In this document: one piece after another, positions 42,901 through 64,000 of the stretch | How the letters are laid out: the number at the start of each line of letters is the position of its first letter | How positions within the stretch are numbered: position 1 is the stretch's first letter | Source: an uncultured bacterium | GTDB taxonomy: Bacteria; Verrucomicrobiota; Lentisphaeria; Victivallales; UBA1829 | Length of the DNA: 64,000 bases | Direction: 5' to 3' | Assembly: GCA_902778895.1 (NCBI GenBank) | Contig: CACYZF010000001.1 | Coordinates: forward strand, 186,001-250,000 | The notes under the pieces: model-generated | What the model was told of the DNA's origin: nothing | The model's input: only the letters and a program-made list of their open reading frames with translations | Database searches by the model: none | Translations under genes and position numbers: made by a program

Positions 42901-43357
42901 CAAGGGCGAGAAACTGCCGACCGCGCCGGATTGCGAGCTTTACCTCGATTTCCTGAGTTTCGCGGTCGAACCGCCGCCGGGTATGATCGCCGCGGGCATC
43001 CCGCCAAGCTACGTTGAGTCGCCGCGCGTGCGCCTGCACTGCTACAGACGGCTGGCGATGTTCACCTCGGAACACGACCTCGACGCGTTTGCAGACGAGC
43101 TGCGCGACCGGTTCGGGCCGATTCCGGAGGAGGTCGACCATTTCCTGATGACCTGCCGGATCCGCCTCGCCGCCGCGGACGCCGGGATCACGAACGTGAC
43201 CTCCCGGGGCAATCTGGTGTATCTGGAGAAGAACAAGCGCATGCTCCGGCGCGACGGCCTGATCCCGGCGATCCTGGCCAGCGCGAAGCCCGCGCAGAAG
43301 TTGAAACTGGTCCTGCGTACCGTGCGCGAATTCATCCCGCGCGCGGAACAGGATTGA
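39932..43357 (+). CDS. mfd: Transcription-repair coupling factor
   Basis: A 1141-aa Mfd: the ATPase that removes stalled RNA polymerase and recruits UvrA. A UvrB-like N-terminal module ([15 protein letters not shown] near residue 190) is followed by the polymerase-interacting domain near 486 ([16 protein letters not shown]), the RecG-like helicase with Walker [10 protein letters not shown] (about 631-639), DEEQRFG (about 730) and the translocation motif region, then the C-terminal TRCF domain. Length matches E. coli Mfd (1148). The first 60 residues hold a Lys/Ser-rich insert ([16 protein letters not shown]). Divergent from the sigma gene. Confidence 0.96.
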
Positions 43358-43377
43358 CGATTGAGGAGATACGCACC

Positions 43378-43884
43378 ATGAAAATGACCGCAGTCCTGAG
43401 CGATATCACGAAACTCCGCGTCGACGCGATCGTGAACGCCGCGAACTGTTCCCTGCTGGGCGGAGGCGGCGTTGACGGCGCCATTCACCACGCCGCGGGC
43501 CGCCAGCTCTACGAAGCCTGCCTCAAGTTCGGCGGCTGCAGCACAGGCGAAGCGCGCATCACGCCCGGATTTAACCTGCCGGCTCGCTACGTAATCCACA
43601 CGCCCGGCCCGGTTTGGCGCGGCGGTACGCACGGCGAACCCGAACTGCTGCGTTCGTGCTACCGGAACTCGCTGACGCTGGCGGAGGAAAACGCCTGTCG
43701 CGTGGTGGCGTTTCCGGGCATCAGCATCGGCGTGTATCATTATCCGCTCGAAGCGGCGACGAAGATCGCCGTGGACGCGGTCGGCACGTGGATGGGGAAA
43801 CTGCCGGAAGAGGTCGTGTTCTGCGCGTTTTCCGAAAACGTTCTTGATGCGTACCAACGCGCGCTGGACGAGTTCCAGACCTGA
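43378..43884 (+). CDS. Macrodomain protein (O-acetyl-ADP-ribose deacetylase-like)
   Basis: A 168-aa stand-alone macrodomain of the YmdB/MacroD type that binds ADP-ribose and removes acyl or ADP-ribosyl groups. It has [20 protein letters not shown] (18-37), AIHHAAG, the substrate-loop segment [17 protein letters not shown], and [14 protein letters not shown] near the end. GAGGAGA precedes the ATG at 43378; an earlier in-frame start at 43354 overlaps mfd. Probably co-transcribed with mfd. Confidence 0.92.
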
Positions 43885-43923: not shown

Positions 43924-44089
43924 GTGCGCAAGCGAAGCTGAGCGCACTACCGCAGTTGAGTCTTTGCCTCACGTGCCGTTGCGAAGCAAGGCACTTCTGC
44001 AGTGAAGGGCTTGCCCTTCGTGCGCAAACGAAGCTGAGCGCACTGCTTCAGTGGAGGACTTGTCCTCCTCAGTAGAGAGCTTGCCCTCC
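43924..44089. repeat. Cluster of double-hairpin repeat elements (three units plus a partial)
   Basis: Each unit is one hairpin of type GTGCgc-n-GAAGC-n-gcGCAC, then about 10 nt (TnCnGCAGT), then a second hairpin such as GAAGGGC-TT-GCCCTTC. Units: first hairpins at 43924-43947, 43973-43994 and 44020-44043; second hairpins at 44004-44019 and 44053-44068, with degenerate ones at about 43957-43970 and 44073-44089. They fill the gap between the convergent macrodomain and methyltransferase genes. Related copies lie at 45874 and 63962. Confidence 0.8.
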
Positions 44090-44845
44090 GCGGCGGACGT
44101 ACTCGAAGAGGATGACCGTGGCGGCTTGCGCCACGTTCAGGGATTCGGCGTCGCCGGGCATCGGGATGTTCAGTCCGCGCGAGTTCTCGAGTTCCGCCAC
44201 GCCGGTGGCCTCGCAGCCGAGGATGATCGCGCTGCGATCGAAGAGGTCCGGCTCCAGAAAGACGTTGCCGCCGCTCGCCGGAAGCGTCCGGTAGCAGGTC
44301 TTCACGCCGAGTTTGCGCAGGTCCGCGGCGAGTTCAGTCAGGTCGCCGCCATAACGGATCTTGAGGAAGAACTGCGCGCCGGACGCGGACCGGACGACTT
44401 TGTCCGAGAACGGGTCGGCTGTGCCACGGGTGAGCCAGACTTCATGCAGCCCGACGGCGCGCGCCGTGCGCAGGATGGTGCCGAAATTGCCTGGGTCGCC
44501 GACGCGGTCGAGCACGAGCGCGAAGGGGTCGGCCATGGGCTGGTCGAGCGGGACGGGTTCCGGGCGGCGCGACAGCACGAGGATGCCCTGCGAATGCACC
44601 GTGGGCGCGATGCGGTCGAATTCGGACTGAGGGAGAATGACCGGTTCGACGGGCGAGGGGAAGGGCAGAGCGGTGCCTTCGCGGAGGATGACGAGTTCAA
44701 CGAGGCCCGGCGCGAGCGTGACGACTTCACGGGAGGCGCGGAGCCCGTCGCAGAAACAGTATTCGGAATCGCGGCGGCCGTGGCGCGTGCGGAGCGCGCG
44801 GAGCAGCGATTCGGTGCGTCTGGTGAGGCCGCCGGATTCGGACAT
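44069..44845 (-). CDS. TrmH/SpoU-family RNA 2'-O-methyltransferase
   Basis: A 258-aa SPOUT enzyme that methylates 2'-OH of a tRNA or rRNA nucleotide with SAM. It shows motif 1 DRVGDPGNFGTILRTA (about 112-127) with the catalytic Arg, motif 2 AIILGCEATGV and motif 3 MPGDAESLNVAQAATVILFE. The N-terminal 90 residues form the substrate-binding extension of the RlmB/TrmH type. Exact RNA target unknown. It follows the YfgM-like gene after 18 bp in one minus-strand operon. Confidence 0.93.
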   Translation of the reverse strand: MSESGGLTRRTESLLRALRTRHGRRDSEYCFCDGLRASREVVTLAPGLVELVILREGTALPFPSPVEPVILPQSEFDRIAPTVHSQGILVLSRRPEPVPLDQPMADPFALVLDRVGDPGNFGTILRTARAVGLHEVWLTRGTADPFSDKVVRSASGAQFFLKIRYGGDLTELAADLRKLGVKTCYRTLPASGGNVFLEPDLFDRSAIILGCEATGVAELENSRGLNIPMPGDAESLNVAQAATVILFEYVRRGGQALY

Positions 44846-45873: not shown

Positions 45874-45920
45874 GTGCCCGAGCGGAGCCGGGCACTACTG
45901 CCGTTAAGGCGATAGCCTTA
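45874..45920. repeat. Double-hairpin repeat element at the guaA 3' end
   Basis: GTGCCCG (45874-45880) pairs with CGGGCAC (45889-45895) around GCGGAGC, then TACTGCCGT, then TAAGGC-GATA-GCCTTA (45905-45920). Same plan as the units at 43924-44089. The second hairpin includes the guaA stop codon. Confidence 0.8.
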
Positions 45921-47477
45921 CTCCCATTCGATGGTTCCCGGGGGCTTGGACGTGATGTCGTAGACCACGCGGTTCACGCCGTTGACCTCGTTGATGATAC
46001 GGTTGGAGATGCGCGCGAGGAGGGGGTAGGGGAGGCGGACCCAGTCGGCGGTCATGCCGTCGCGGCTTTCGACCGCGCGGATGGCGATGGCATCCTCGTA
46101 GGTGCGTTCGTCGCCCATGACGCCGACGGAGCGCACGGGGAGGAAGACGGCGAAAGTCTGCCAGATCTTGTAGTAGAGGTTGGCCTTCTTCATCTCGTCG
46201 ACGATGATCTTGTCGGCGCCGCGCAGGACGGCGAGCTTGCCTGGGGTGACTTCGCCGACGCAGCGGACGGCGAGTCCGGGGCCGGGGAAGGGCTGGCGCA
46301 TGACCATTTCCTCAGGGAGGCCGAGCTGACGGCCCACTTCGCGCACCTCGTCCTTGAAGAGGCGGCTGAGGGGTTCGAGCAGCTTGAATTTCATGTGGTC
46401 CGGGAGGCCGCCGACGTTATGGTGGCTCTTGATGACGGCGCTCGGGTTGCCGTCGATGGAGATGCTTTCGATGACATCCGGGTAGGTGGTGCCCTGCGCG
46501 AGGAAGGTCACGTCGGGGATGTTCGCGCAGGCGTCGCTGAAGACCTGGATGAACTCGCCGCCGATGATCTTGCGCTTGCGTTCGGGCTCGTTGACGCCGG
46601 CGAGCTTCGAGAGGAAACGGTCGGTCGCGTCGACGTACACGAGCGACATCTTGAACGTGCCGCCGAAGAGCTCGCGGACGCGTTCCGGCTCGTCCTTGCG
46701 GAGCAGGCCGTTGTTCACGAAGACGCAGGTGAGCTGGTCGCCGATCGCCTTGTGGATGAGTGCGGCGGCCACGGAGGAATCGACGCCGCCGGAGAGGCCG
46801 AGGATCACGTTCGCGGAGCCGACGATCTCGCGGATCTCCGCCACGGAGCGTTCGATGAAGTCGGACATGGTCCAGTTCGCGGAGCAGCCGCAGATGCCGA
46901 GGCAGAAATTCTCGATGACGAGCGGGCCCATCGGAGAGTGGACGACCTCGGGGTGGAACTGGATGCCGAAGAGGCGGCGGTCCAGGTCCTGCACGGCCGC
47001 GAACTCGGTGTTGTCGGTCTTCGCGCAGGTCTTGAAGCCTTCGGGCAGGCGCGTGACCTTGTCGCCGTGGGACATCCACATCTGGGTCTCGGCGGGGACG
47101 TCCTCGAAGAGCGGGGACGCGGCGGTCGTGGAGACGATCGCCTTGCCGTATTCGCGGGCGTCGCCGTGCGCCACCTCGCCGCCGAGTGTTTCGACCATGA
47201 GCTGAAGGCCGTAGCAGATGCCCAGCACCGGGATGCCGAGTTCGAAGATGGCCGGGTCGCATTTCGGGGCGTTGGCCTGGTATACGCTCGCGGGGCCGCC
47301 GCTCAGGATGATGCCCGCGGGCGCGGCGGCGCGGATCTCCTCCGCCGGGGTCTTCCAGGAGACGATCCGGCTGTAGACGTGGAGCTCGCGGACGCGGCGT
47401 GCGATGAGCTGGCTGTACTGGGATCCGAAATCCAGCACGAGAATGGTTTCAGGATGATTCATAACATTGTTTCTCAT
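45918..47477 (-). CDS. guaA: GMP synthase (glutamine-hydrolysing)
   Basis: Converts XMP to GMP. The 519-aa product has the class I glutamine amidotransferase triad C88 ([12 protein letters not shown]), H175 and E177 (QFHPEVVH), the ATP-pyrophosphatase P-loop LSGGVDSS (228-235) and the C-terminal dimer domain ending [17 protein letters not shown]. Length is normal. A second possible start lies at 47462. A 21-bp palindrome sits 18 bp upstream of the first start and could regulate it. Confidence 0.96.
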
Positions 47478-63805: not shown

Positions 63806-63961
63806 GATGAGAAATCCTTGTTTTTAAGTTTTGATTTCAGTTGGTTGTATGTGAAAAATGATAATCTCTCACTATACTGTAGCCTCGCGAACGAAAAATT
63901 CAAGGCATGTTTCGGGAGTTTCCGCTGTTTTTTTTCGATTTTATAGAAAACGCGCGAAGAG

Positions 63962-64000
63962 GGAGGCGGGACCTCCGCCGCGGTTGTGCCGCGCTTCGCG
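63962..64000. repeat. Inverted, truncated copy of the double-hairpin repeat
   Basis: Read on the + strand: GGAGG (63962-63966) and CCTCC (63972-63976) as the second hairpin, then GTGCC (63986-63990) and GCGCTTCGCG, where the matching GGCAC would lie just beyond the window. It is the reverse-complement order of the units at 43924 and 45874. Confidence 0.5.

Follow-up and report, generated by a model that had tools for sequence, protein, structure and literature searches.

A REP-like family of paired hairpins at gene ends in a genus of rumen Lentisphaeria

The repeated double hairpins described here are probably REP/BIME-like mobile elements that are non-autonomous, about 47 nt long, and move as one block. 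They are called REP-like in this work, as candidate rather than established members of REP. Judged from the genomes compared, the family is restricted to one genus of rumen Lentisphaeria with a diverged relative in a second genus. The initial annotation had likened the repeats to REP/BIME or RAYT-mobilised elements. The likeness to a dispersed, modular, and mobile paired-hairpin family of REP type is retained, but mobilisation by RAYT is not.

The window is the whole stretch of 64,000 nucleotides that was analysed (C1:186001-250000), taken from a genome of 3.24 Mb in 20 contigs. Three full units are arranged head to tail on the plus strand between 43924 and 44068. Unit 1 (43924-43971, 53.5 bits) consists of hairpin H1 (43924-43947), a linker (43948-43956), and hairpin H2 (43957-43971, with one mismatch). 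Unit 2 (43973-44019, 63.9 bits) consists of H1 (43973-43994), linker (43995-44003), and H2 (44004-44019), and both of its hairpins are predicted as DNA and as RNA. Unit 3 (44020-44068, 62.1 bits) consists of H1 (44020-44043), linker (44044-44052), and H2 (44053-44068), where H2 abuts the stop codon of a minus-strand gene (44069-44845) that is RNA methyltransferase-like by eye from the sequence and whose 3' end is an insertion hotspot. The tandem tract had been annotated as three units at 43924-44089; the three units stand, whereas 44069-44089 is a decayed remnant of H2 and linker on the minus strand that now supplies the 3' end of the methyltransferase-like coding sequence (GGQALY plus the stop codon). 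On the H1 side lies a convergent plus-strand gene (43354-43884, macro-domain-like by eye) whose stop is 39 nt before unit 1.

The single unit annotated at 45874-45920 (plus strand, 57.6 bits) was confirmed, with H1 (45874-45895, GGA loop), linker (45896-45904), and H2 (45905-45920). Its H2 stem includes the stop codon (45918-45920) of a minus-strand gene (45918-47477) read from the sequence as guaA (C-terminus PGTIEWE), so the second hairpin does span the guaA stop as had been noted. The inverted copy at the window end (63961-64000, minus strand) is real but degenerate (26.2 bits, E 5e-4); it is cut by the window end and its full span is C1:249961-250007, which extends 7 nt beyond the window.

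The family is dispersed well beyond these copies, as the initial annotation had supposed. A loose sequence pattern gave 56 matches in the whole genome against 27 for the reversed pattern used as control. A covariance model was built from 32 units (two of the 34 parsed units remained unaligned, and rows with a shorter H2 were retained despite H2 misalignment), and the genome-wide unit counts are lower bounds. In the source genome (G000), at least 151 matches were found at E <= 0.05, at least 99 of them above 43 bits (E < 1e-8). The 99 strong units form 77 arrays, 66 of which are single, and units in one array mostly share the same orientation. Twelve of the 13 genomes of the genus are carriers, the other 11 with at least 79-146 matches each. 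The covariance model gave no match in the congener G020 (94% complete) and none in 22 of the 23 genomes of other genera of the same family (nine genera). G002, from another genus, has at least 12 matches at E <= 0.001 and at least 18 at E <= 0.05. A public-sequence scan with one H1 variant returned 83 stretches, all but one in MAGs labelled Lentisphaeria, Lentisphaerae, or Victivallales or in RUG records (which we take to be rumen uncultured genomes), several of the latter labelled merely 'uncultured bacterium'. A match in a planctomycete MAG (L216, Planctomycetota) shows H1 alone with no linker or H2 seen and was set aside as chance or unrelated. No match to one H1 pattern was found in viral contigs.

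The units are 46-49 nt long and consist of H1, linker, and H2 in that order. H1 is an imperfect hairpin of 22-24 nt that has a 7-bp stem starting with GTG, a 1-nt bulge, a GC/GC upper stem of 2 bp, and a GNA or GNNA loop of 3-4 nt (GC-GNA-GC tip). The parser fits this layout to 97 of the 99 strong units (two unfit), and H2 was parsed in 88. The spacing between the hairpins, given earlier as about 10 nt, is refined to 9 nt, without exception among the 34 units examined. H2 is a GC-rich hairpin with a short loop and stem variants that arise via compensating changes. The GAAGC core proposed initially is too narrow and the core is GCGNAGC, since GAA loops are present together with GTA, GGA, GCA, and GNNA loops. 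The last loop base is A in 97/97 parsed units and the first is G in 90/97, while the middle is free.

Pair counting for covariation was performed on H1 alone. The stem cells of the 97 parsed units comprise 659 Watson-Crick, 6 G-T, 4 A-C, and 10 other combinations. In the covariation count, 97.6% of cells are paired compared to 82.4% in shuffles. Two-sided changes occur in 41 cells against a shuffled mean of 11.0, so the arms co-vary between copies. For the three units tested, two hairpins each are predicted on either strand, for DNA as well as RNA. Read on the complement of the H1-linker-H2 strand, the foot of H1 carries the tag GTAG (42), GCAG (21), GTTG (10), or GAAG (5) among 90 parsed units (9 of the 99 unparsed), with the last G paired inside the stem. 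The G..A loop edges are constant on the element strand, and arrays occur in both orientations relative to genes. DNA minihairpins of the d(GCGNAGC) type have special stability; the predicted DNA energies, computed as a check of this idea for the GNA/GNNA loops, show no preference for the G..A-loop strand, and a minihairpin role is kept as a suggestion. In the 64-kb window, no Rfam covariance model reached its gathering threshold.

The arrays are located mainly at gene 3' ends, in agreement with the initial annotation. With gene calls from a simple codon-usage script, in which single cases may err, four of the 77 arrays are inside called genes and 73 are intergenic. Of the intergenic arrays, 28 have a gene end on either side, 41 adjoin a single gene end, 3 have a gene start on either side, and 1 has an unknown flank (69/73 adjoin at least one gene end), and the background gaps comprise 34, 120, and 15 for the first three categories. 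Among the cases in which an element end faces a stop codon, H2 falls within -4 to +2 nt of that codon in 20/46 and H1 in 0/56 (Fisher 7e-9). This contact is the most unusual feature of the family and may reflect targeting, selection, or chance tolerance. A pyrimidine lies immediately 5' of H1 in 72 of the 75 arrays evaluated (the two arrays with mixed orientation were excluded from the flank statistics), and an A5 run precedes H1 in 2/75. No replication-strand bias of the units was seen by local GC skew, which is a weak test.

Comparisons between sister species exhibit filled and empty sites. At C11:15494, a 46-nt unit lies between GAATCC and TGGGG, and a sister contig (L204) joins GAATCC to GGGG with no unit. 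Seven species were compared at the 3' end of the methyltransferase-like gene. G025 and G029 end in RRMF-stop and have no unit at the stop. G030 and G027 have a unit that begins directly after TGA (partly decayed in G027), and G028 has one that starts a few bases after TGA. G021 has a complete unit between CGCCGC and ATGTTC, so that its protein ends in RRGGQVLH and the former codons ATGTTC now lie downstream of the inserted unit. G000 has a decayed form of the G021-type insertion (RRGGQALY) and the three tandem units. The unit positions differ among species, which indicates insertion at two or more positions of this one gene end, and, as read from the aligned sequences, one insertion replaced the C-terminus of the protein.

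At C4:96043, G027 and G022 join TGA to ACCGG, and G029, G021, G028, and G026 have similar short joints (near-identical in G029). In G000, TGA is followed at once by a unit and an extra module. G031 and G030 have apparent decayed copies, G023, G025, and G024 have unrelated spacers, and G020 is not alignable. The guaA 3' end carries one to many units, with changing stem sequences, in 10 of the 11 orthologues compared and none in G028 (a comparable orthologue was not obtained from G020 or G031). The loci L225 and L232 are distinguished by a single 47-nt unit, an exact tandem copy. These differences fit block insertion without target duplication that is followed by tandem growth and decay, a reaction which is itself only inferred. 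Some of the presence/absence differences may be losses; clean single-unit empty sites are few, and several hotspots are too divergent to order insertion and loss. The recent spread suggested initially from the tandem units is supported, as is tandem growth.

RAYT enzymes are the usual explanation for REP-like repeats. Two models were used to look for them. NF047646, run across the family, gave no hit above its curated cut-off in the 13 congeners, while the same run did detect G002; a RAYT was rejected as the enzyme that moves the units in this genus at present. The PF01797 search (Y1 domain; own genome, genus, and family) found IS200-like genes or fragments in 4 of the 12 carriers, i.e., three fragments and one intact gene. 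One fragment is a 5'-truncated Y1 transposase of 75 aa in G000 (contig C7, L047 1528-1755), and the others are in G025 and G028. The intact gene, from G023, is the sole such copy in the genus; its end hairpins are unlike H1, and IS200/IS605 was rejected as the source of the units. The reverse transcriptase PF00078 is patchy (7/13 congeners, and other genera too) with no link to the units and was also rejected. G002 has a RAYT gene (L335, G002:C202:1000-4391, minus strand; 81.2 bits against the cut-off of 80) that has inverted GTAG palindromes, different from H1-H2, on either side. The same genome has 18 H1-H2-like units of the same layout, 12 beside the GTAG palindrome or its remnant and 6 alone. 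Judging by this association, H1-H2 units and RAYT REPs may be able to spread together, yet the H1-H2 family peaks in abundance in genomes where a RAYT was not found.

BIMEs and REPINs pair two REPs, which are inverted in REPINs. The present units resemble them as a hairpin composite that moves or grows as a block and forms tandem arrays, but H2 is unrelated to H1 in sequence, the linker length is fixed, and units in an array are mostly co-oriented. IS200/IS605 elements insert without target duplication, and precise filled/empty pairs of this kind were found for the present units. A full element sharing the unit ends was not found; the ends and miniature derivatives of IS200/IS605 are comparable as hairpins of 20-25 nt recognised in ssDNA, according to PMC6006769. 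The CGTC REPs, as outlined in PMC3733652, are likewise abundant palindromes without a dedicated transposase, but they have their own tag, their stems and loops differ from those of the present unit, and they have no H2. Mitochondrial double-hairpin elements are also mobile hairpin pairs but organellar. None of the open-licence papers retrieved describes such a repeat in Lentisphaeria in its title or the opening of its abstract. The 12 sister genomes combine REP-like repeats, presence/absence differences among close species, and no recognisable RAYT. Set beside a repeat-free congener and another genus in which a related repeat occurs along with a RAYT, they form a natural setting to find other palindrome movers, and also to ask why one element end meets stop codons and how gene ends change.

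Intrinsic terminators combine a GC-rich hairpin with a direct T-run, and a T5 run within 12 nt after H2 was found in only 10/75 arrays (background 4.6% of 12-mers). A hairpin with a T-run is still present beyond the guaA unit in G000 and G027, and species without the unit at C5:194251 have their own T-tailed hairpin. The terminator use proposed initially could explain few arrays, the other 65 having no such T-run; such a role is occasional at best, and an effect of the units on mRNA ends is possible. At C5:194251 and its orthologues (L127/L279-L286), H1 of G000, G026, and G029 has no GCGNAGC core and is preceded by an A-run, as if an ordinary terminator hairpin had been fused to a unit's linker and H2.

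A narrower form of the REP-like mobility explanation is that the units are classical GTAG REPs or BIMEs whose RAYT was recently lost or acts in trans, and we entertain it as a tentative possibility. GTAG REPs are described in PMC3733652 as short imperfect palindromes in many copies, mostly downstream of genes and partly clustered, with a GTAG/GYAG tag near the hairpin foot and families with compensatory stem variants. H1 is likewise a short imperfect palindrome, mostly extragenic, at gene 3' ends, and partly clustered, with compensatory stem variants, and its size and copy number fall within the range of 20-40 nt and many extragenic copies. A basal stem, a bulge, and a short upper stem also characterise the long REPs in PMC6006769, and the 1-nt bulge and small loop of H1 in 97/99 units agree with the layout that allows a bulge of 1-3 nt. 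The GYAG-like foot tag and the co-occurrence in G002 point in the same direction. Nevertheless, the unit joins two unlike hairpins 9 nt apart, the G[TC]AG tag is present in 63 of 90 parsed units and its final G overlaps the stem by one base, and the RAYT of G002 is flanked by a different palindrome while a third of the H1-H2 units there stand alone (6/18). A RAYT gene above the cut-off and flanked by the repeats was not found in the 13 congeners, 12 of which have the repeats.

It is rather unlikely that the units are host 3'-end devices, i.e., bidirectional terminators or mRNA-stabilising double hairpins that are selected per gene end and reshuffled by recombination, with mobility incidental. 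The preference for gene ends, the H2 contact with stop codons, the constant place of the guaA units in 10/11 orthologues though the stems change, and the T-runs above background would all suit such devices. They are at odds with the majority of arrays that have no T-run, the separate T-tailed hairpins, and the absence of units from G020 and nearly all genomes of other genera. The loop edges are also fixed by element strand while arrays face genes either way, which, by inference, fits a mobility constraint better than a transcript constraint. Far less probable still are immobile ancestral palindromes that expanded by slippage alone and were homogenised by template-switch repair and gene conversion. 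The exact tandem duplication and the wholesale stem changes at shared sites such as guaA could be produced in this way, but not readily the isolated single units where a sister species is cleanly empty, the unit inside an ORF end with displaced codons kept downstream (G021), or the constant H1 bulge, which perfect-palindrome repair should erase.

For the preferred reading of REP-like mobile elements, the comparisons show filled/empty sites that run precisely from GTGC at the start of H1 to the end of H2, without target duplication and with a pyrimidine directly 5' of H1. They also show that whole units duplicate in tandem and that a single gene end can be hit at more than one position. H1 may be a recognition hairpin that is read in ssDNA by an ssDNA endonuclease or transposase, because of its constant bulge, its loop that is fixed at the G..A edges but free in between, and the G[T/C]AG-like tag at the opposite-strand foot. 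The mobilising enzyme, with no RAYT now encoded here, may have been lost, may be supplied in trans, or may belong to an unrecognised family. The concentration at gene 3' ends would result from the removal of insertions at other places, and the host may have co-opted some units as terminators or 3'-end hairpins. Some of the empty sites could instead stem from precise deletion, and template-switch repair of palindromes could also yield covariation. The lack of RAYT above cut-off, the patchy Y1 transposase and reverse transcriptase, and the lack of a visible replication-strand bias count against mobility. A more specific proposal can be offered, again tentatively, that the units are RAYT-independent 47-nt mobile double hairpins that insert by their H2 end beside stop codons and after a pyrimidine on the H1 side, via an unrecognised ssDNA recombinase that reads the GNA-loop DNA minihairpin, and that they reshape 3' UTRs and protein C-termini across the genus.

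Other repeats were also observed. A 106-nt duplication with a tRNA gene-like sequence, seen by eye, distinguishes L167 (5213) from L181 in one sister genome. A second unit type forms tandem arrays with a period of about 43 nt in L250 (G025:C52) and L045 (G000:C17:19965-20117). It consists of H1, a linker (TGTATCAG, TTTATCGG, or TGCTCGG), and a CAC..GTG hairpin, and some of its arrays run counter to the main-type units found at the same gene end. A strict regular expression (linker TGTATCAG, H2 CACCGC-TT-GCGGTG) found one, a clear undercount as others are visible by eye. L033 (G000:C7:169118-169325) has three 80-nt repeats that each consist of a main-type unit and a common flank (ATGAAAGAT-like), which suggests a composite amplified together with its surroundings.
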